A stretch of DNA of 48,455 bases from an uncultured Clostridia bacterium (GCA_947625435.1 CANQOI010000009.1:1-48455); one strand, 5' to 3'; shown: positions 20,149 through 32,192, counted from the first letter of the stretch. A program made the numbers and translations. The notes: a model not told the origin generated them from the letters alone.

Positions 20149-20499
20149 ATGCGAAAGGCTGCGGTACGAGTCATGGATACGATGATAGTTTTTATAAATA
20201 TTTTCTTTATACCGATGATATCGGTTCATATTTACTGCAAAAGGAACAATGTCAGGCCGGTATTATCCGCCTCTTCTGTCGTGAGATACTGTATATTCAC
20301 TGTGGCCGTGTTCCTGACGGCAAAGCTCGGGGCGGAATTCGTAAGTATATTTTACACTCTGGCGATACCTCCCGTGGACGCGTATTATACGATATTTGCG
20401 GTGCCCGCGGCTGTCATAGTCCCGTTTGCGGTTGAATTCTTCAGAAAATATTTACGTCCCCGCGTTAAGATAGAAAAAAACGAAGATGAGAAAGAATAA
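20149..20499 (+). CDS. Small membrane protein upstream of LTA synthase-like gene
   Basis: I do not recognise a named family. It has 116 residues with three hydrophobic segments (about 10-27, 40-65 and 72-98) and a short charged cytoplasmic tail (KIEKNEDEKE). The ATG at 20149 has a poor ribosome site; ATG 20173 (MDTMIV) is a credible alternative. Its 3' end overlaps the LTA synthase-like gene by 14 bases, so it is probably an accessory or topology partner of that enzyme (inference from coupling). Confidence 0.65.
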   Translation: MRKAAVRVMDTMIVFINIFFIPMISVHIYCKRNNVRPVLSASSVVRYCIFTVAVFLTAKLGAEFVSIFYTLAIPPVDAYYTIFAVPAAVIVPFAVEFFRKYLRPRVKIEKNEDEKE

Positions 20500-22045
20500 C
20501 GGCGATAACGGCAATTATAAACATAAAAATATTCTGAGAACGGTTCTCCGCGCCGCCGCCGTCACGGCGGGAGGCGTACTCATAGCCTTGGCCGGAGCGG
20601 TATTTGCCGTTTCGAGATGGCTTGACAGAACGTACGACATGGATTTCAGCGCGCTCCTGCACACACTGATATCGCCTCTTAAAGGAACGAGCAGCAGCGT
20701 GATAAACGATATAATAGGCGAATGCGTGCCGGCGGCGCTCGTATGCCTTGCCGTATATGCCGCCGCCGTATTTGTATTTTACCAGAGACGGGTGACCGTG
20801 CGGCTTTCGGCGAATATTTTACGGAAGGAACGCTGTATTGACGCGCTGAAGCTGTCACGCAGGGTGCTGCCGCTCGTGTGCCTTGCCGTGTTCGTCATGT
20901 CGCTTTATAACTGCTATGACGTGCTCGGTATCGCGGAGTGGAGGGAAGCGCAGGGACAGCAGACCGAGATATATGAAGAACATTATACAGATCCGGCGGA
21001 TGTGGAGATAACCGAAAGAGGTAAAACGAAGAATATCATTTACATATACGTGGAAAGTCTGGAAACAACGTACGCATCGAAGGCCGTGGGCGGATTCCAG
21101 CCCTCGGTGAATTTTATACCTTACGCCACCGAGCTCGCTCTTTCGGATGAAAACATCTCATTTTCGGAAAACGGCATGCTGGGAGGATTTTATACGACGC
21201 CCGGCTCCGACTGGACAATGGGAGGTATATTCTCTACCACAACGGGACTGCCCTTTGAATTTCCCACGGAGAGGAACAGCCTCGGGAAACACGAAAAGTT
21301 CGCATCGGGAGTCACTTCTCTCGGTCAGATATTACAGCAAAGGGGATATTATCAGGAATTTTTGTGCGGCTCCAAGTCTGAATTCGGAGGAAGAAGGGAC
21401 TATTTCGAGCAGCACGGCGATTATGAGATATTCGACCACGCCACGGCTATCGAGAAGGGATACATAGCGCCGGACTATTACGTTTGGTGGGGATACGAGG
21501 ACTACATACTCTACAAAATAGCTAAAGACGAGCTTTCGAGGATAGCCGAAACGGAGCAGCCGTTTAATTTTACTCTCCTTACAGTGGATCAGCACTCCGT
21601 CGGCGGCTGCGTATGCCCTCTGTGCGGCAGTGATTATGACGAAAAGCTTTCAAATGTGCTCCTGTGCGGCGACAGGCAGCTTTATGATTTCGTTAACTGG
21701 TGCAAGGAACAGGATTTTTACGAGGACACGATAATCGTAATAACGGGCGATCATCCGAGAATGGACACTATCCTTGTGGACGGCGCCGACAAAAGGCCTG
21801 TTTATAACTGCTTTATCAATACGGGACTCGAACCGGTGCAGCCCATGAGGAGCAGGACTTTCACGTCTCAGGACATATTTCCCACTGTGCTGTATGCGAT
21901 GGGCTTTGATATAGAGGGCGACAGGCTGGGGCTGGGCACTAACCTTTTCTCGGACATGCCCACGCTCTCAGAGGAGCTCGGCATCGATTATTACCTGGGT
22001 GAGCTTGCCAAGAGCTCTCTGTATTATATACGCAGATTTTCATGA
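20486..22045 (+). CDS. LTA synthase/sulfatase-family membrane phosphoglycerol transferase
   Basis: Member of the alkaline phosphatase-superfamily lipoteichoic acid synthases, which transfer phosphoglycerol to lipid-linked polymers outside the membrane. It has 519 residues with about three N-terminal membrane helices (near 18-42, 65-100 and 128-150) and an extracellular sulfatase domain. The metal-binding segment IYVESLE, the nucleophile Thr244 in GSDWTMGG and the GDH metal site late in the domain (TGDHPRMD) are intact. It has fewer helices than classical five-helix LtaS, so the product could be another phosphoglycerol- or phosphoethanolamine-modified glycan. The stop overlaps the convergent nucleosidase gene by 6 bases. 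Confidence 0.85.
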   Translation: MRKNNGDNGNYKHKNILRTVLRAAAVTAGGVLIALAGAVFAVSRWLDRTYDMDFSALLHTLISPLKGTSSSVINDIIGECVPAALVCLAVYAAAVFVFYQRRVTVRLSANILRKERCIDALKLSRRVLPLVCLAVFVMSLYNCYDVLGIAEWREAQGQQTEIYEEHYTDPADVEITERGKTKNIIYIYVESLETTYASKAVGGFQPSVNFIPYATELALSDENISFSENGMLGGFYTTPGSDWTMGGIFSTTTGLPFEFPTERNSLGKHEKFASGVTSLGQILQQRGYYQEFLCGSKSEFGGRRDYFEQHGDYEIFDHATAIEKGYIAPDYYVWWGYEDYILYKIAKDELSRIAETEQPFNFTLLTVDQHSVGGCVCPLCGSDYDEKLSNVLLCGDRQLYDFVNWCKEQDFYEDTIIVITGDHPRMDTILVDGADKRPVYNCFINTGLEPVQPMRSRTFTSQDIFPTVLYAMGFDIEGDRLGLGTNLFSDMPTLSEELGIDYYLGELAKSSLYYIRRFS

Positions 22046-22900: not shown

Positions 22901-25051
22901 ATGAGAAGAATGTCAGATTTCGGAAACGGTGTGCGCTTTATGAGTAGATTGTTCGCACTGTTTCTTATAGCTTCTCTGTGCATGGGCTTTGATATTTTCG
23001 CAGCGGGAGATACTGCGGAGGTCAGGCCGGACTCGTGGGCCGCAGTGGACGGTCTCGGAAGAACGGTAAGCACATATGACGATGTGGGAGAGACGCGGGA
23101 CGGAAAATATGTAGGTATATTTTACTGGACGTGGCATTACGATTTTGCAAGGAGCACGCGCGCAAGGAACGTGACCGAGATAATAAACGAGCATCCGGAG
23201 GCGAGGAACGATTACAATCACTCCGCGTGGGGCAGAGGCACCGGCGGACAGTACTTCTTCTGGGACAAACCGATATTCGACTATTACATCAACACAGACG
23301 AATATGTGGTAAGAGAGCAGGCAGAGCTCCTGGCCGATGCCGGCGTAGATGTGATATTCTTTGACTGCACGAACGGAACATTCGTGTGGGAGCCCGCATA
23401 CGAAACGGTATTCAAAGTATTCGAGGAAGCAAGAGCGCAGGGCGTGAAGACTCCGCAGATAGCGTTCATGATGAATTTCGGCGGAGCGCAGGACACGGCC
23501 ACACAGCTCGAATACGTATACAAGGATATATATAAACCGGGAAGATATGAGGATCTGTGGTTTAAATGGGACGGAAAGCCCCTGGTGCTCGCAAGAAAGA
23601 AGAGCACTACATACGCGGGAGATATGTCTACGGAGCTTCGCAAATTCTTTACATTCAGATACTGCAACCCGAGCTATTATACGCAGGATCAGCCCATATC
23701 GCAGGGTCAGTGGGGATGGTGCTCCGTATATCCTCAGACTAAGTACGGAGTGAGAGACGACGGCTCGGTGGAACAGATGACCGTGAGCGTGGCGCAGAAT
23801 GCCAGCGATAACGGCGGACCTATAGCAATGAACGACTACAGGGGCGGAGTATACGGAAGAGGTTATGCAAAAGGCGATTATTCATATACGTATACATATC
23901 AGGGACAGGAAATAAAGGTAGACAAGAATACGCAGGACGCGTATCTTTACGGGCTCAACTTCCAGCAGCAGTGGGATTACGCTATGTCGGTCGACCCGGA
24001 TTTCATATTCATAACCGGATGGAACGAATGGGTGGCTATACGCCAGCAGTCATGGCAGGGCACGACAAACGCATTTGCGGATCAGTACAATGCCGAATTC
24101 AGCCGTGACGTGGAGCCGTCAGACGGCGTGCTCAAGGACTTTTTCTACTATCAGATGGTAGACAATATACGTAAATTCAAGGGCGTCGGCAAGAACCCGT
24201 ATTCCGGAACGGATGCCGGAGTATATAAGACTATAGACATACACAGCAGCAGCGATCAGTGGGCCGATGTTGAGCTCCGGTACGACCATTATCAGAATAA
24301 CACATGGGACAGAGATTCAAACGGCTGGCTCGGCATGAAGCGCATGACGTATTCCACGATGAGGAATGACTTTGTATCCTTCAAGGTGGCATACGACGAT
24401 GAATATGTCTACTTCCTCGCAGAAACGGCGGACAACATAACGAGCTCTTCGGGAGTATCGTGGATGCACCTTTATATCGATACGGACCCCACGGGCATTT
24501 CACCGAACTGGGAGGGCTTTGAGTATGTTGTGAACAGGATACCGCTCACGACACCCGAATGGGCAGGATACTGTAAGGTGGACAGCTCAGCCGGAGGATG
24601 GAAGTTCAGAGAGGTGGGACGTGCGGAATATACCGTAAACGGAAAACGCATGCAGATCGCGATACCCAGAGCGATGTTGGGACTTGAGGATGTAAACGGC
24701 ACCATGCCGGCATTCAACTTTAAGTGGTCGGATAACACGGTCGCTCCGGGCGCCACATCTGATTCCGGGAACATACTTGACTTCTACAAGTACGGAGACG
24801 TCGCTCCGGGAGGAAGATTTATGTTCACATTTGATCCTGCAGAATTCGGCACCAAGGGAGACGTGAACGCGGACGGCAGCATAAATGTTGCGGACGCAAG
24901 CCTTGTCATGCAGATACTGGCCGAATGGGATATGCCCGAAGGAACTGTCGTATCCAATGCGGATATAAACGGAAACGGCAAAGTGGACGTGCAGGACGCG
25001 ACGCTCATACTGCAGCATATCGCAGGCTGGTTCGACGAATTCCCCGTGTAA
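22901..25051 (+). CDS. Secreted glycosidase-like protein with CBM9-like module and type I dockerin
   Basis: A 716-residue exported protein. A signal peptide (about 1-35) ends near AAG. A catalytic-type barrel (about 40-435) has YVGIFYWTWH, FFDCTNG (about 153-159) and GWNEW (373-377, with Glu376 a candidate catalytic residue). These resemble the GH99/WbsX-like barrels, but exact family and substrate are not certain. A CBM9-like module (about 442-650, with IDTDPTG and WEGFEYVVNR) should bind glycan ends. A type I dockerin (about 652-716) has two Ca-binding loops, DVNADGSINVAD and DINGNGKVDVQD, for cohesin docking. The start at 22901 has GAAGGGAG 10 bases upstream and lies after the promoter. 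A full paralog lies at 30120-32192. Confidence 0.85.
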   Translation: MRRMSDFGNGVRFMSRLFALFLIASLCMGFDIFAAGDTAEVRPDSWAAVDGLGRTVSTYDDVGETRDGKYVGIFYWTWHYDFARSTRARNVTEIINEHPEARNDYNHSAWGRGTGGQYFFWDKPIFDYYINTDEYVVREQAELLADAGVDVIFFDCTNGTFVWEPAYETVFKVFEEARAQGVKTPQIAFMMNFGGAQDTATQLEYVYKDIYKPGRYEDLWFKWDGKPLVLARKKSTTYAGDMSTELRKFFTFRYCNPSYYTQDQPISQGQWGWCSVYPQTKYGVRDDGSVEQMTVSVAQNASDNGGPIAMNDYRGGVYGRGYAKGDYSYTYTYQGQEIKVDKNTQDAYLYGLNFQQQWDYAMSVDPDFIFITGWNEWVAIRQQSWQGTTNAFADQYNAEFSRDVEPSDGVLKDFFYYQMVDNIRKFKGVGKNPYSGTDAGVYKTIDIHSSSDQWADVELRYDHYQNNTWDRDSNGWLGMKRMTYSTMRNDFVSFKVAYDDEYVYFLAETADNITSSSGVSWMHLYIDTDPTGISPNWEGFEYVVNRIPLTTPEWAGYCKVDSSAGGWKFREVGRAEYTVNGKRMQIAIPRAMLGLEDVNGTMPAFNFKWSDNTVAPGATSDSGNILDFYKYGDVAPGGRFMFTFDPAEFGTKGDVNADGSINVADASLVMQILAEWDMPEGTVVSNADINGNGKVDVQDATLILQHIAGWFDEFPV

Positions 25052-26648
25052 AACAGCTTGACTGTCATACATTAAGTGTATAATATTGTACTGTCATAGA
25101 CCAAGCATACAGAGGTATCGATATCACATGAAAAAGATCATAAGCATACTTATCGCGTTTTCCGTTTTTACGGCAATGTGCTCCGGAATGTTCGCATATG
25201 CGGCGGACGACGGAGAGCCCTTGCCGCATGCTCATATTGAAGACATAACGGCGCCTGCCTTTAATGTCAAAGCCACAGGTGTGGTGTCTCTCCCGGGCGG
25301 ATATAAATACTATTCGGCAGTATTCACAAACCCGATATATGAAGCCGAAGCTTCAGAGCATGTGCCTGAGCCGGGCCTGCCCGTGCCTGCCGCATACTAT
25401 GCCGCAGCCGGATCCTCAGAAGAGTACACAGAAGGGATCGAAGCCGCTGCAGACATAATGAGAGAGCACATGAAAAACAGGATAAGTACGTTTACAATAA
25501 ACATGAGATCGTCTGTGTACCCGGATCCCGGTGAGCTTACGAGGATCGCGTCGGAAGCTTTCAGGCATACTGGAAATCCCAAAGAGGGAGATTATATCCG
25601 TTTTCAGCTTGACAACTGGTCCGCGCGGAATACATTTCACTATGACGGCGTGTATTATTATTCAAATATAACATTCAACGTTAACTATTTCACTGACGCT
25701 TCACAGGAGTCGGAGGTTGACAGTATCGTCGGGACGCTCGTTAAAGAGTTCTCAGCCCAAAAGACCGATCATGACAGGATAGCCGCCGCATATGAATACA
25801 TATGCGACCATGTGGCATACGACTATGGCAATCTTTACAACGACAACTATATGCTTAAATATACCGCTTACGCTGCCTTGAAGAAGGGCACGTCCGTATG
25901 TCAGGGCTATTCTGTCCTACTCTACAGACTTGCTCTGGAGCTCGGCATTGATTCCAGAATAATAACGGGGATCGGAAACAACGGAAATCATGCGTGGAAT
26001 ATAATAAAATTAAAGGGTAAATATTATAACGCAGACTCAACATGGGACGAAACCAACAAGCCGTCGTATTATAGATATTTTCTTAAATGCGATGCAAATT
26101 TTACGGATCATCAAAGGGGAGAAGCTTATGACAGCAGTGAATTCCGCAAGGCTTACCCCATGGCGGACAGGGATTATGAGAATGTGTCCTGCGGCGGCGA
26201 CCACAGCCCGGCGGCTCCCGTAGAAGAACATACAGTCAGAGCAACATGCACGACTGACGGCTCATACGAGGAGGTCATATACTGCTCTGTATGCGGCGAA
26301 GAGCTTCAGAGGAAGAAAGTGACCGTAAGTGCGACAGGTCATGTATGGAACGATTGGGTGATCGTAGAACCCGCCACAGAAGCATCGGACGGACTTAAGG
26401 AACGCGAATGCTCCGTATGCGGCACAAAAGAGACGCAGATGATACCTATGATCGGAAAGAGCGCCATAGGGGACGTGAACGCCGACGGCAGCATAAATGT
26501 TGCGGACGCGACCCTTATCATGCAGATATTGGCCGAATGGGATATGCCGGAAGGAATTGTCGTGCCCAACGCCGATCTGAACGGGAACGGCAAGACGGAC
26601 GTGCAGGACGCGACGCTCATACTGCAGCATATCGCAGGCTGGTTCGAC
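24857..26648 (+). repeat. Pair of near-identical dockerin-coding segments
   Basis: The dockerin-coding stretches 24857-25036 and 26469-26648 are nearly identical. Their last 52 bases (24985-25036 and 26597-26648) match exactly. The two host genes are otherwise unrelated, so the module was copied or homogenised recently. Confidence 0.85.
25058..25086 (+). promoter_or_regulatory. Candidate promoter of the transglutaminase-dockerin gene
   Basis: TTGACT (25058-25063), 17 bases, then TAATAT (25081-25086); an overlapping TATAAT at 25079 has 15-base spacing. A 9-base direct repeat ACTGTCATA flanks it (25061 and 25090). Confidence 0.6.
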
Positions 26649-26651
26649 TGA
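25128..26651 (+). CDS. Secreted transglutaminase-like protein with dockerin
   Basis: A 507-residue exported protein. The signal peptide (1-24, ending FAYA) is clear. A transglutaminase-like cysteine-protease fold has its full triad: Cys258 in SVCQGYS, His288 in NHAWN and Asp303 in YNADSTW. Two short CxxCG repeats follow (YCSVCGEE and ECSVCGTK), a cell-surface repeat type common in gut Firmicutes. A type I dockerin (about 447-507) is almost identical to that of the upstream glycosidase. The enzyme may cleave or cross-link proteins or peptidoglycan peptides on a cellulosome-like complex (inference). ATG 25128 gives a proper signal peptide, with AGAGG 12 bases upstream. Confidence 0.88.
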   Translation: MKKIISILIAFSVFTAMCSGMFAYAADDGEPLPHAHIEDITAPAFNVKATGVVSLPGGYKYYSAVFTNPIYEAEASEHVPEPGLPVPAAYYAAAGSSEEYTEGIEAAADIMREHMKNRISTFTINMRSSVYPDPGELTRIASEAFRHTGNPKEGDYIRFQLDNWSARNTFHYDGVYYYSNITFNVNYFTDASQESEVDSIVGTLVKEFSAQKTDHDRIAAAYEYICDHVAYDYGNLYNDNYMLKYTAYAALKKGTSVCQGYSVLLYRLALELGIDSRIITGIGNNGNHAWNIIKLKGKYYNADSTWDETNKPSYYRYFLKCDANFTDHQRGEAYDSSEFRKAYPMADRDYENVSCGGDHSPAAPVEEHTVRATCTTDGSYEEVIYCSVCGEELQRKKVTVSATGHVWNDWVIVEPATEASDGLKERECSVCGTKETQMIPMIGKSAIGDVNADGSINVADATLIMQILAEWDMPEGIVVPNADLNGNGKTDVQDATLILQHIAGWFD

Positions 26652-26693
26652 TTTTACATGTAATATAATCTAAAGATTCAAGGAGGACTTTAT

Positions 26694-28397
26694 ATGATGA
26701 ATGATATACCATACGGAATAAGACGGGAAGAAATATACAAAGATACCGAACCCGACAACAGAGTGAGGAGATTCATGACTCCCCGCCGTGTAGTATGGAA
26801 AACCGACGGAGACAGGGCGAGGGTGTCCGGAGAAGATGCTCTTCTCAAGCCGCACATCAAACAGATACATTTTAACGTGCCCGAAACGTGCCTGCTCGAG
26901 AGCAAGGGCGAGAGCGCGGGCATTTTACTCGACTTCGGGGTGGAATTTCACGGATATGTGAAGCTTTACATACATTCGGTGACGCCTCAGCGCGTGCGTC
27001 TGAGAGTGCGTTTCGGAGAATCGGCTTCCGAGGCTATGGCAGAACTGGGAGGAGATAAAAATGCCACGAACGACCACATAAACAGAGATCAGGTCATAGA
27101 CGTGGGCTTTCTCAGCATGCCGGAGATAGGGCCGAGCGGCTTCAGGTTCGTGAGGATAGATCTGCTCGACAAGGACGCTTCGATAACATTTCAGGCGGTA
27201 CAGGGAATATTTGTATACAGGGATCTCGAATATAAGGGCTCGTTTGAATCGAACGACACGCTCTTGAATGAGATATGGAATACGGCCGCATACACGGTGC
27301 ATCTGAATATGCAGGAATACGTTTGGGACGGTATAAAGAGGGACAGACTCGTGTGGATAGGCGACATACACCCCGAGACATCTACGATACAGGCGGTCTT
27401 CGGATACGATAAAAGCGTTGAGGACAGCCTTGACCTCGCAAGAAACGAATCTCCGATACCGAGCATGATGTGCGGAATGTCATCGTATTCGCTTTCATGG
27501 ATAATAGTGCATTACGGATGGTATCTGCAGAACGGAAACAGAAGATATCTTGAAGAGCAAAAGGAATACCTCACCGCGCTCCTCAGATATTTTGCCGGCC
27601 GCATAAATGACGACGGCTCCGAAAATATGCCCGAGAACAGGTTCATAGACTGGCCTTCGAATGACAAGCCCGACGTGATACATGCGGGACTTCAGGGATA
27701 TATGAGAATGGCTTTTACGGCGGGAGAATATCTGTGCAGAGAGCTGGGCGACAGCGAGACCGCCGACATATGCGCAGGTGCCGCGGCAAAGCTGCTGAGA
27801 CACGTGCCCGATCACAAGGGGAGCAAGCAGGCGGCGGCGCTCCTCGCGCTTTCCGGGATAGAGGACGCGCGTAAAATGTCCGATGAAGTCATAAAGAAGG
27901 ACGGCGGCAGGGGCTTCTCCACATTCATGGGATATTATATGCTGCGCGCTCTCGGAGAAGCGGATGAAGTGGCGTCGGCGATAGATATAATAAAGGAATA
28001 CTGGGGCGCCATGCTTTCAAGGGGCGCGACCACATTCTGGGAGGATTTCAACCTCGACTGGCTCGAGGGCTCGGGACGTATAGACGAAATAACGCCGGAA
28101 GGCATGATTGACATACACGGCGACCACGGCGCATACTGTTATATCGGTTTCAGACACAGCCTGTGCCACGGCTGGGCGTCCGGACCGGCGGCGTTCCTGT
28201 CAGAATATGTGCTGGGAATAAGACCTGTGGCCCCGGGATGCGCTAAAGTACGCTTTGAGCCGCACCTCGGAGGTCTCGAATGGGTCAAAGGCACATATCC
28301 CACTCCCCACGGAATAATAAAGATCGAGCTCAGAAAAAAGCCGGACGGAGGCACAGAGAGTAAAATAGAACTGCCGGAAGGGGTTACAATTGCTTAA
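26694..28397 (+). CDS. GH78-family (alpha-L-rhamnosidase-like) glycosidase
   Basis: A 567-residue cytoplasmic protein without signal peptide. The order is that of bacterial rhamnosidases: a beta-sandwich region (LLDFGVEFHGYVKL, VRFGESASEAM), the six-hairpin barrel with RDRLVWIGDIHPE near residues 215-230, and the C-terminal beta-domain (HGWASGPAAFLSEYVLGI). It lacks the extra N-terminal domains of full-length rhamnosidases of about 900 residues. It would release rhamnose or a related sugar from imported oligosaccharides; the exact sugar is not certain. ATG 26694 is preceded by a near-perfect AAGGAGG. The end overlaps the VanZ gene by 8 bases. Confidence 0.87.
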   Translation: MMNDIPYGIRREEIYKDTEPDNRVRRFMTPRRVVWKTDGDRARVSGEDALLKPHIKQIHFNVPETCLLESKGESAGILLDFGVEFHGYVKLYIHSVTPQRVRLRVRFGESASEAMAELGGDKNATNDHINRDQVIDVGFLSMPEIGPSGFRFVRIDLLDKDASITFQAVQGIFVYRDLEYKGSFESNDTLLNEIWNTAAYTVHLNMQEYVWDGIKRDRLVWIGDIHPETSTIQAVFGYDKSVEDSLDLARNESPIPSMMCGMSSYSLSWIIVHYGWYLQNGNRRYLEEQKEYLTALLRYFAGRINDDGSENMPENRFIDWPSNDKPDVIHAGLQGYMRMAFTAGEYLCRELGDSETADICAGAAAKLLRHVPDHKGSKQAAALLALSGIEDARKMSDEVIKKDGGRGFSTFMGYYMLRALGEADEVASAIDIIKEYWGAMLSRGATTFWEDFNLDWLEGSGRIDEITPEGMIDIHGDHGAYCYIGFRHSLCHGWASGPAAFLSEYVLGIRPVAPGCAKVRFEPHLGGLEWVKGTYPTPHGIIKIELRKKPDGGTESKIELPEGVTIA

Positions 28398-28896
28398 AGA
28401 TCTGACAGGAAAGGAAAAAATCAAATATGTGATCCCCCGCGCCGTATGCGTGACTGCCGTGCTGGTGCTCATGTGCTTCATTTTCGGCAATTCAACGGAT
28501 AATGCGGAGGAATCTTCGGACAAAAGCTCTTTTGTAACGGAAATATTGCAAAAGGCGGCGGATGTCGTGTCTCCGGGCACAACGGTGAATGAGAATTCAG
28601 TCCGCAAATGTGCCCATTTCATTGAATTTACCGCATTGGGAGCGCTCGCCATGCTGACGCTGAGGGTTTTTACGGAAAAATATATGACGCATATAACCGC
28701 ACCTCTGTTCTATGTGCTCGCGGTCGCTGTCAGCGATGAATTCATTCAGATAAACAGCTCCGGAAGGGCGTCGGATGTCAGAGATGTGCTGATAGACTTC
28801 TCCGGCGCTCTTACGGGTACGTTATTGTGCCTGCTGTTCATCGTGCTTGTCGGATATATCGGCAAAAAGAGAAAAAAGAGTAATGCCTATGCGTGA
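28390..28896 (+). CDS. VanZ-like membrane protein
   Basis: A 168-residue VanZ-family protein. It has an N-terminal membrane helix (about 13-32), the family's KCAHFIEFTALGAL segment (about 76-89) and DEFIQ...GRASDVRDVLIDFSG before the last helix. VanZ gives low-level teicoplanin resistance in enterococci; most homologues have no known role. The start is a TTG at 28390, supported by GGAAGGGG 7 bases upstream and an 8-base overlap with the GH78 gene. It overlaps the AI-2E gene by 8 bases, so the three are translated as a chain. Confidence 0.88.
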   Translation: MLKDLTGKEKIKYVIPRAVCVTAVLVLMCFIFGNSTDNAEESSDKSSFVTEILQKAADVVSPGTTVNENSVRKCAHFIEFTALGALAMLTLRVFTEKYMTHITAPLFYVLAVAVSDEFIQINSSGRASDVRDVLIDFSGALTGTLLCLLFIVLVGYIGKKRKKSNAYA

Positions 28897-30133
28897 CGAA
28901 CATAAGACCGGTAAGATAAAAACAAACGTTGAGGAAAAAAAGCACGGCGTAAAGCTGTTCAGATCCCGCTTTACGCCGGCGAAGCTGTATCTGTATATAC
29001 TCGCTGTGCTCCTTACCGTTAAGATCGTATTTGACATACACGGCTTCGGAGATTTTGTGTCCAAAGCCGTATCATTCGTGATATCACTGTTCGGATACCT
29101 CATAATAGGCGTCGTGATAGCATATATACTCAACACATATACGCTTTTCTGGGAAAACAAAGTATTAAAAAAAGTCAATAAGAAGAGATTAAAGCGCGGG
29201 ATAAGCATAGCCATAGCTTACGTAACGCTCATAGCGGTCATAGCTCTCCTCATTTTTGCGCTTGTCCCTACCGTTATAGATACGGTAAAGTCATTTTCGT
29301 CCGATATACCGCGGGCATTTCAGAAAATACTCGAATTTTACAATGATCTGGTAGAGAGGGACAGATTCAATCTGTCCGAGGAAGTGCGGAATACGATAAG
29401 GGACAACATAAGCGGGATGCAGGATACAGTCATGGCGTGGATCAATGCCGAGAACATAACGAATCTCGCCACGAGACTCTTCTCGACGACGATAAGCGGT
29501 ATATTCAATGTTCTGATGGGGCTTATGGTGTCCGTATATATGCTCATAGAAAAAGACAAGACCGTAAATATGTTCAAGAGAGTAAATTATGCTCTTTTCT
29601 CAAAGACGCATGCGGATAACATACAGTGGGGAGCCTCGCAGTGCAACAGGATACTGAAACAATATTTTGCGGGCAAGCTCATACAGGCGCTCATAATACT
29701 CGTACTGTCATATGTTCTTTTCCTGATAGCGGGACTGAAATATGCGGTGATACTGGCAGTTGTGATGGCCGTTATGAACATGATACCGTACATAGGGCCG
29801 TGGATTGGAGGAGCGGCAGTTGTTTTCATGTCTCTTCCGCAGGGAGTATTTTACATATGCGCCGCGCTCATATGCATACTCATAGTTCAGGCTGCCGACA
29901 ACCTGTTCATTTCACCTAAAATAGTGGGAGGACGTATGGGGATCAGTCCGCTGCTCGTGCTCGCCGGTCTGTGTATAGGGGGAGGTCTCTTCGGCCTGCC
30001 GGGAATGATAATGGGCGATGTGCTCGCCGCTGTTTTTAAGACACTTTTTTATGACCGTTATATCGGAAACAGATTGAAACGTAAAATGGAAAACGGAGTT
30101 TTGACAAAGGAGTTTGATAATGATGAAAATTAA
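28889..30133 (+). CDS. AI-2E family transporter (UPF0118)
   Basis: A 414-residue polytopic membrane protein of the AI-2E/TqsA-like exporter family. A charged N-terminus is followed by helices near 30-50, 60-85 and 105-130, a long periplasmic-type amphipathic segment (about 140-200), and the conserved C-terminal block with MNMIPYIGPWIGG and LPGMIMGD. Substrates in the family are varied (AI-2 export, Na+/H+ exchange); none can be assigned here. ATG 28889 overlaps the VanZ stop as ATGCGTGA and has AAAGAG 8 bases upstream; ATG 28883 and TTG 28847 are alternatives. It overlaps the next gene by 14 bases. Confidence 0.87.
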   Translation: MRDEHKTGKIKTNVEEKKHGVKLFRSRFTPAKLYLYILAVLLTVKIVFDIHGFGDFVSKAVSFVISLFGYLIIGVVIAYILNTYTLFWENKVLKKVNKKRLKRGISIAIAYVTLIAVIALLIFALVPTVIDTVKSFSSDIPRAFQKILEFYNDLVERDRFNLSEEVRNTIRDNISGMQDTVMAWINAENITNLATRLFSTTISGIFNVLMGLMVSVYMLIEKDKTVNMFKRVNYALFSKTHADNIQWGASQCNRILKQYFAGKLIQALIILVLSYVLFLIAGLKYAVILAVVMAVMNMIPYIGPWIGGAAVVFMSLPQGVFYICAALICILIVQAADNLFISPKIVGGRMGISPLLVLAGLCIGGGLFGLPGMIMGDVLAAVFKTLFYDRYIGNRLKRKMENGVLTKEFDNDEN

Positions 30134-32192
30134 AGTGTGCGCATTGTTTCTGTGTGCCGTATTGATCTTAGGCCCGGTGATGCCCGCATACGCGCAGGAG
30201 GGGTCCGGGCAGGCCGGGCAGGCCGATCAGACGCAGGCGGAGATAAAGCCCGATACGTGGGCGGCGGTAGACGGACTCGGAAGGACCGTGAACGGTTACG
30301 GCGATGTGGGAGATAAACGCGACGGTAAATATGTGGGTATATTTTACTGGACGTGGCACTATGAATTCGCAAAATCCACAAAGGCCATGAACGTGACCGA
30401 GATCATAAACGAGCACCCCGAGGCGAGGAATGACGTCGACAATGAGGCATGGGGTAAAGGAACTCTCGGGAAATATTTCTTCTGGGACAAGCCCATATTC
30501 AATTATTACATAAATACGGATGAGTACGTGATAAGAGAACATGCCGAGCTTTTGGCGGACGCCGGAGTGGATGTCATATTTTTCGACTGCACAAACGGAA
30601 CATATCTGTGGGAGGACGCGTACAGGACGGTCTATAAGGTATTCGAACAGGCGCGGGCCGAGGGCGTGAATACCCCGAAGATAAGCTTCATAATGAATTT
30701 CGGAGGCGGCAAAGAGACCGCGACGCAGGTAAGAGAGGTATACAACGATATATTTAAAGACGGAAAATATCAGGATCTCTGGTTCATGTGGGAGGGCAAG
30801 CCGCTCATACTCGCGTATCCCGACTGCATATCGGAATACGACCTGCAGGGGCCTGAAATACTCGACTGCTTCACATTCAGATACTGCCATCCCAGCTATT
30901 ATACGGATGATACTAAAATAGAAGACAGGACATGGGGCTGGTGCTCCGTGTACCCTCAGACAAAGTACGGCATACGCGAGGACGGCAGCGTCGAACAGAT
31001 GACGGTGAACGTAGCTCAGAATGCCAGTGACAACGGCGGGCCGCTTGCCATGAACGACTACCGCGGAGGCGTTTACGGAAGAGGCTACGCAAAAGGCGAT
31101 TACTCGTATTCATACGAATATCAGGGAAATCAGGTTACGATAAACAAGGACACAGAAAACGCTTATCTTTACGGACTCAATTTCCAGCAGCAGTGGGATT
31201 ACGCTCTTTCCGTGGACCCCGATTTCATATTCATAACGGGATGGAATGAATGGGTGGCCATAAGACAGAAGGAGTGGGGCGGTTCCCCTAACGGATTCGC
31301 CGATCAGTATAACGCGGAGTTCAGCCGCGACGTAGAACCGTCGGACGGCATACTGAAGGATTATTTTTACTACCAGATGGTGAGCAATATACGCAAATTC
31401 AAAGGCGTTACCGCTCCCGACACGGCGGACAAAAACAGCGGTGCGTATAAGACGATAGACATAAACAGCACCGACGATCAGTGGGCGGACGTAAATCTTT
31501 CATACGCACATTATACGAACAACACGTGGGAAAGAAATTCCGCGAGCTGGAGAGGCATAAAGAAATATCAATATTCGACCATGAGGAACGATCTGGAGCT
31601 CTTCAAGGTGGCATATGACAACGAAAACGTATACTTCCTGGCACAGACGGCAGGCGACATAACGGATCCGTCAGGCCCGTCGTGGATGCACCTTTACATA
31701 GACACCGATCCCACGGGCAGCTCGCCCAACTGGGAGGGCTTTGAATACATAGTCAACCGCGTTTCTCCCTCGGGCGGCGAATGCTCCGTTGAAAGGTCGG
31801 ACGGAGGATGGAATTTCATCGAAGCCGGCAAAGGTAAAATATCCGTGAGCGGAAACAGGCTGCAGCTCTCGATACCGAGAGAGACGCTCGGACTTACGGA
31901 TAAGGACGGTAAAATACCCGCTTTCAATTTCAAGTGGACGGATAATACCATAGAGCCCGACACAACGGAGGATACGGGAAATATACTTGATTTCTACAAA
32001 TACGGAGACGCGGCTCCCGGAGGAAGATTCATGTTCTCGTTCAATACAGAATACGTGGCGCCCCCGGATTCAGGATCCGGATTATTGGGACTGCCCTGGT
32101 ACATATGGACCTGCATAGGCGTCGCTGCAGCCGCAGTGACAGCGGCAGTCGTGACAGTTGCGGTGCGCAGGGGCAAAAAAAGTGTTGCATGA
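30120..32192 (+). CDS. Secreted glycosidase-like protein with CBM9-like module and C-terminal membrane anchor
   Basis: A 690-residue paralog of the 22901-25051 protein, alike from the mature N-terminus (TWAAVDGLGRTV) to the end of the CBM9-like module (FYKYGDAAPGGRFMF). Signal peptide 1-24 ends AYA. The barrel motifs FFDCTNG and GWNEW (374-378, Glu377) are kept, as is the IDTDPTG of the CBM9-like part. In place of a dockerin it ends with a single membrane helix (LPWYIWTCIG...) and a basic tail RRGKKS. No LPxTG motif is seen, so anchoring is by the helix itself. ATG 30120 has AAAGGAG 7 bases upstream and overlaps the AI-2E stop. It would hold the same activity at the cell surface. Confidence 0.85.
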   Translation: MMKIKVCALFLCAVLILGPVMPAYAQEGSGQAGQADQTQAEIKPDTWAAVDGLGRTVNGYGDVGDKRDGKYVGIFYWTWHYEFAKSTKAMNVTEIINEHPEARNDVDNEAWGKGTLGKYFFWDKPIFNYYINTDEYVIREHAELLADAGVDVIFFDCTNGTYLWEDAYRTVYKVFEQARAEGVNTPKISFIMNFGGGKETATQVREVYNDIFKDGKYQDLWFMWEGKPLILAYPDCISEYDLQGPEILDCFTFRYCHPSYYTDDTKIEDRTWGWCSVYPQTKYGIREDGSVEQMTVNVAQNASDNGGPLAMNDYRGGVYGRGYAKGDYSYSYEYQGNQVTINKDTENAYLYGLNFQQQWDYALSVDPDFIFITGWNEWVAIRQKEWGGSPNGFADQYNAEFSRDVEPSDGILKDYFYYQMVSNIRKFKGVTAPDTADKNSGAYKTIDINSTDDQWADVNLSYAHYTNNTWERNSASWRGIKKYQYSTMRNDLELFKVAYDNENVYFLAQTAGDITDPSGPSWMHLYIDTDPTGSSPNWEGFEYIVNRVSPSGGECSVERSDGGWNFIEAGKGKISVSGNRLQLSIPRETLGLTDKDGKIPAFNFKWTDNTIEPDTTEDTGNILDFYKYGDAAPGGRFMFSFNTEYVAPPDSGSGLLGLPWYIWTCIGVAAAAVTAAVVTVAVRRGKKSVA

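Follow-up and report, generated by a model that had tools for sequence, protein, structure and literature searches.

Is one type of enzyme sent to two places when its C-terminus is exchanged? This question is raised by two genes on a stretch of 48,455 nucleotides from an uncultured Clostridia bacterium (GCA_947625435.1, CANQOI010000009.1:1-48455; hereafter the window), whose products, P0001 and P0002, appear to be paralogous glycosidases with different C-terminal modules. The initial annotation had placed P0001 on a cellulosome-like scaffold and P0002 on the cell surface. Our analysis points to a different arrangement. With a probability of roughly 60%, P0001 and P0002 are paralogs within a sister family of GH99 and GH71, of which P0002 would have kept an ancestral membrane helix and P0001 would carry a derived dockerin that plugs into a single cohesin on the membrane, thereby forming a two-piece surface enzyme.

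Architecture and genomic context of the gene pair

Both proteins correspond to open reading frames at the positions proposed initially (Table 1), and the start of P0001 is backed by an AAGGGAG sequence about 10 bases 5′ of position 22901. The proteins are identical in 436 of 642 residues (68%, 16 gaps; BLASTP) and collinear up to ...GGRFMF(T/S)F(D/N), where they diverge as described. This likeness followed by a C-terminal split is far beyond chance. GWNEW is present in both barrels, with the invariant Glu being E376 in P0001 and E377 in P0002. Two details of the initial annotation stand in part: the signal peptides, said to be collinear, are of the same kind with weak sequence likeness, and the CBM9-like module is backed by its fold (7nwo, E 3.5e-4, probability 1.0, TMt 0.46) and by no Pfam match.

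The C-termini agree with what had been proposed. Residues 652-707 of P0001 match Pfam Dockerin_1 above the gathering cut-off (E 2.3e-10) and contain the two calcium loops of a type I dockerin, DVNADGSINVAD and DINGNGKVDVQD. P0002 ends in ...LPWYIWTCIGVAAAAVTAAVVTVAVRRGKKSVA, with a top 19-residue hydropathy of 2.23 and the basic tail RRGKK. Its genome (G000) encodes five sortases. No xPxTG-type sorting motif was found before the P0002 helix, and a membrane anchor therefore fits better than sortase attachment.

Table 1. Features in and around the gene pair, with positions counted from the first nucleotide of the window.
Feature	Position	Strand	Basis
Promoter-like site TTGACG-17-TATACT with TG, upstream of P0001	22825..22853	+	consensus match only
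P0001, 716 aa: signal peptide, GH99-like barrel, CBM9-like module, C-terminal type I dockerin	22901..25051	+	
P0001 GH99-like (beta/alpha)8 barrel; invariant E376 in GWNEW, D403/E405 in SRDVEP	23012..24217	+	
P0001 dockerin; 90% DNA identity with the dockerin of the next gene	24854..25021	+	
Secreted transglutaminase-core protein with C-terminal dockerin	25128..26651	+	
Dockerin of the transglutaminase protein, near copy of the P0001 dockerin	26469..26633	+	
GH78-like alpha-L-rhamnosidase without signal peptide (cytoplasmic)	26694..28397	+	
VanZ-like membrane protein, overlapping the GH78-like gene	28390..28896	+	
AI-2E family transporter, overlapping P0002	28847..30133	+	
P0002, 690 aa: signal peptide, GH99-like barrel, CBM9-like module, C-terminal membrane anchor	30120..32192	+	
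P0002 C-terminal membrane helix	32097..32165	+	hydropathy
P0002 basic cytoplasmic tail RRGKK	32166..32180	+	
Terminator-like stem with T run, 3′ of P0002	32204..32219	+	consensus match only

A consensus scan found no terminator-like site on the plus strand between P0001 and the GH78-like gene, so that co-transcription of P0001 and P0002 is possible. Just 5′ of the region, at 20486-22045 of the window, lies a gene for a sulfatase-fold membrane protein resembling phosphoglycerol transferase or lipoteichoic acid synthase. The GH78-like rhamnosidase, predicted to be cytoplasmic, lies in one gene run with P0002 and has been retained in G307, a genome of the same genus. GH78 neighbours were counted at about nine loci of the barrel family, plus one more by eye, a number that comes without a background count, and this neighbourhood is only a hint as to the substrate. 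Products of the barrel might pass on to the cytoplasmic rhamnosidase.

The barrel resembles GH99 and GH71 but lacks their catalytic dyad

Single-sequence searches of the P0001 and P0002 barrels against Pfam and NCBIfam assigned no family and gave chance Radical_SAM scores only; a PDB profile search with the barrel yielded nothing beyond IMPDH noise. The AlphaFold2 model (pLDDT 88 at full length, 93 for the barrel alone) is a (beta/alpha)8 barrel whose best 40 PDB matches were all GH99 or GH71 (best E 2.6e-6), with GH99 the nearest solved fold and GH71 (9fnf) the second; the likeness is moderate, with TM values of about 0.40-0.55 and 10-13% identity. At full length, the model matched GH99, GH71 and a CBM9 module. 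WbsX, the third family that the initial annotation had named for comparison, gave no Pfam match (PF14307, WbsX/GH99-like, E up to 1) in P0001, P0002 or 40 members. Some distant members match Pfam GH99 (PF16317) below cut-off, one of these matches spanning GWNEW. The cut-off of 33 bits was reached by no tested member (best 26.3 bits), and P0001 and P0002 gave no match. The top Pfam GH99 scores belong to two barrel-only proteins of G000, L083 (C33, 372 aa) and the lipoprotein L085 (C7, 407 aa), which may help to root the family.

In GH99 (endo-alpha-1,2-mannosidase/mannanase), two catalytic acids lie three residues apart in the motif EW[H/G]E (E404/E407 in MANEA; PMC11025385), and GH71 alpha-1,3-glucanases have a catalytic D-x-x-E pair (DYGE, Asp265/Glu268 in AnGH71C; PMC12394665). 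A phmmer alignment sets the NE of a distant member against that in FNEWHEGTQIE, which is the catalytic site in MANEA and its Bacteroides relative; the NE of the motif aligns with MANEA E404. All 123 members retain this first Glu. The residue at +3, however, is A in 83, M in 22, V in 8, F in 4, C in 2 and G, S, N or I in one member each; it is never acidic, and the second acid of the dyad is therefore absent in all 123. The DYGE pair of GH71 is not present in members either. Because of the missing second acid the barrel belongs to neither GH99 nor GH71. Where GH99 has EW[H/G]E, the barrel family has NEWxA/M, and it differs further by a hairpin inserted between strand 8 and helix 8. After this hairpin, 117 of 123 members have a motif of the S-R-D-x-E-P type. 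Six acids (D94, D111, D116, E337, D364 and E366, A2 numbering) are invariant across 45 diverse members.

Since the barrel has no Pfam or NCBIfam family, a GH99/GH71 fold and no complete dyad, an undescribed group would be a fair reading of sequence and model, which strengthens the earlier suggestion of a possibly undescribed glycosidase group; we propose that the family is a sister branch of GH99 and GH71. No named family covering it was found in published papers, although a recent CAZy family might do so; “uncatalogued” refers here to Pfam, NCBIfam and the literature. A search for true GH99 in the host's class found none, which is no proof of absence as the control matched nowhere either.

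The barrel would act as an endo-acting glycoside hydrolase in which E376/E377 provides one catalytic acid, and the SRDxEP motif may supply an acid in place of the missing second one. Alternatively, the barrel might be no hydrolase and might have kept the GH99 fold for binding or for another class of enzymatic activity, as the absence of the second acid from every member would allow. We consider this improbable in view of the fully conserved NE and the six invariant acids, and because the expansion of the family, its CBM9-like module and its GH78 neighbours suit a glycan-degrading enzyme.

Distribution and attachment forms of the family

Relatives of the barrel were detected in 25 of 391 genomes of the host's class and in all 16 genomes of the window's family, where each genome contains 11-39 aligned pieces, some genes being split in two. 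This corresponds to roughly 11-35 loci per genome, a strong expansion in this lineage; G000 itself has 13 pieces, or about 11 genes. In a phylum-wide sample, one genome besides the window's own encoded the family. A contig titled Roseburia sp. (L015, a MAG from water deer colon) carries a close relative that groups with the window's family, and its label may therefore be wrong.

Family members in G000 take four forms, namely cytoplasmic-looking, lipoprotein, membrane-helix and dockerin. The 123 members were sorted by simple hydropathy and motif rules, not trained predictors, into 60 with a membrane helix, 21 without signal, 13 lipoproteins, 8 secreted, 6 with a dockerin, 5 with another C-terminus and 10 truncated. 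On the 123-member tree these labels require 31 changes with the truncated rows as a group and 21 without them. A dockerin profile run over the family found no further dockerin members.

Origin of the pair and of the P0001 dockerin

P0001 and P0002 came out as sisters (support 100/99) both in the 123-member tree and in a carefully built one of 20 members, with the single copy of G307 next. A topology in which P0002 pairs with the G307 copy and P0001 is older was rejected (p-AU 0.007). In G307 the gene order is GH78-VanZ-AI-2E-[membrane-anchored copy]-trigger factor, and a dockerin copy is absent from this locus; the order left of GH78 is not common to G307 and the window. From the matching order, P0002 is the positional ortholog of the G307 copy. 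The nearest outgroups of the pair are all membrane-anchored, and the helix is thus ancestral and the P0001 dockerin derived. In our reading, the ancestor was a secreted protein whose anchor was a C-terminal membrane helix followed by a basic tail. P0002 retains this form, together with the ancestral place beside GH78-VanZ-AI-2E-trigger factor. The duplicate, P0001, lost the helix and gained a dockerin common to the neighbouring transglutaminase gene.

The dockerins of these two neighbours share 169 of 187 nucleotides (90%), in a match that begins at the module boundary. Third-codon identity is 85% between them versus 50% between the barrels of P0001 and P0002, and the other dockerins of G000 reach at most about 52% protein identity. 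The dockerin was therefore copied or homogenised between the neighbours well after the enzymes had split, and was, judging from these identities, exchanged locally and recently. Relatives of the transglutaminase elsewhere are at most 44% identical, too distant to show the direction of the copy.

Within the barrel family as a whole, a tree uniting the members with a C-terminal dockerin in one clade was rejected (p-AU 1.3e-5), excluding a single origin of this type, and the members with an N-terminal dockerin form a separate clade. Dockerins, as these trees indicate, arose more than once in the family.

Cohesins of the genome and the place of attachment

The initial annotation had proposed a cohesin search in the genome, with a complete absence of cohesins as the finding that would speak against it. 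Such an absence is rejected, since G000 (86 contigs, 98% complete) has two cohesins above cut-off and one weak one. The scaffold that had been proposed fares less well. Ten dockerin matches, among them subtilases, NAGPA, a GH123-like protein, the transglutaminase and P0001, provide the several tagged enzymes of a cellulosome, but no multi-cohesin scaffoldin was found above cut-off in this assembly. Both cohesins are single, each on a protein with its own predicted C-terminal membrane helix. The first protein, on C39 at a contig end, comprises about 200 aa with signal peptide, one cohesin, membrane helix and basic tail; the second, on C27, is 1138 aa long and combines its one cohesin with a C-terminal helix and with NPSTGD, a motif resembling sortase signals. 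Orthologs of the C39 protein in G077, G256 and G307, all of the same genus, adjoin an enzyme of the barrel family with signal peptide, N-terminal dockerin and GH99-like barrel; in G256 this enzyme gene is cut off by the end of a short contig.

Because the cohesins of G000 are single and on membrane-helix proteins, and because of these gene pairs of cohesin ortholog and enzyme, the surface is a more likely destination of P0001 than a second place, and P0001 and P0002 would most likely share one place via two attachments. The dockerin of P0001 would bind a membrane-anchored single-cohesin protein, and P0001 would be found where P0002 is, but in exchangeable form. Of the earlier view, the two kinds of attachment thus remain, whereas the two places are weakened by cohesins that, where visible, are borne on the surface.

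An off-membrane scaffoldin with several cohesins, holding P0001 and the other dockerin proteins while P0002 stays on the membrane, would fit the ten dockerins that face two cohesins. Repeat-rich scaffoldins break in assemblies of this kind, some dockerin genes of G000 end at contig edges, and G196, another genome of the order, has three cohesins in one protein. We nevertheless find two places unlikely, as no protein has more than one cohesin above cut-off in a genome that is 98% complete, and as most proteins with cohesins above cut-off in the 16 family genomes have just one, apart from a few possible pairs (G307 C24, G394 C92).

Less probable again, and the least probable of the alternatives considered, is a P0001 that is simply secreted, its dockerin being passively inherited or structural with no cohesin partner in use. 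No cohesin gene adjoins P0001 in G000, and the putative recognition residues in the dockerin loops vary within the genome, so that P0001 may pair with either cohesin or with neither. Its dockerin is intact, however, with both calcium loops kept, and dockerins were gained more than once, always in genomes also encoding cohesins, as in G196 and G050, the other genomes with C-terminal dockerin members; cohesin and enzyme genes are, moreover, neighbours in three relatives. We therefore retain the two-piece surface enzyme as our preferred reading. Its extension to the whole family is more tentative and, in our estimate, falls somewhat short of even odds: a new GH family that is the sister of GH99/GH71, employs another catalytic acid and has grown to dozens of copies per genome, which would have exchanged helix, lipid and dockerin repeatedly and in which dockerin and membrane-borne single cohesin would form a split, swappable membrane-anchored enzyme, not a cellulosome.

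Further dockerin and cohesin arrangements were observed. Dockerin and cohesin genes also adjoin in other genera of the family, where the dockerin protein is a different one: a conserved pair consists of a secreted protein with a C-terminal dockerin (DFAKLRQ type) adjoining a membrane-helix cohesin protein (L141-L144, L152 and L153, in G105, G289, G175, G394, G395 and G361). At L149 and L150 (G391) and L151 (G325), proteins that contain cohesin and dockerin in one frame adjoin another cohesin protein, which has a C-terminal helix. In G000, a dockerin gene runs off C48 (L069:14071-15534), the start of C72 (L154:1-210) reads as its continuation and a similar gene start follows, which suggests a tandem dockerin gene array that broke the assembly. 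C20 (L066:3-6092) and C8 (L071:6494-13450) encode subtilases of more than 2000 aa that contain bacterial Ig-like domains and internal repeats resembling dockerins.

Comparison with known attachment systems

P0001 and P0002 offer a natural comparison between direct and dockerin-mediated anchoring of one enzyme, with a readable order of events, so that the advantage of cohesin-dockerin attachment becomes testable without a scaffoldin. The pair also leads to a large family of enzymes in gut Clostridia that seems to be uncatalogued and whose chemistry must differ from GH99.

Membrane-anchored single cohesins and gut dockerin systems are already known. The mucinolysome of Limousia and the single-cohesin system of Clostridium perfringens are dockerin systems of the gut (PMC12997984; the text of this paper makes no mention of GH99). 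They resemble the present case in that gut Clostridia carry dockerin-tagged glycan- and protein-degrading enzymes outside cellulose degradation, and differ from G000, where no multi-cohesin scaffoldin was found. Non-SLH anchoring proteins with a single cohesin and a C-terminal membrane helix have been described, some with unclear partners (PMC11557425), and the C39 protein has the same architecture. The difference is that orthologs of the C39 protein adjoin a dockerin-tagged enzyme, which names a likely partner, and the comparison thus proposes partners for such orphan membrane-anchored cohesins.
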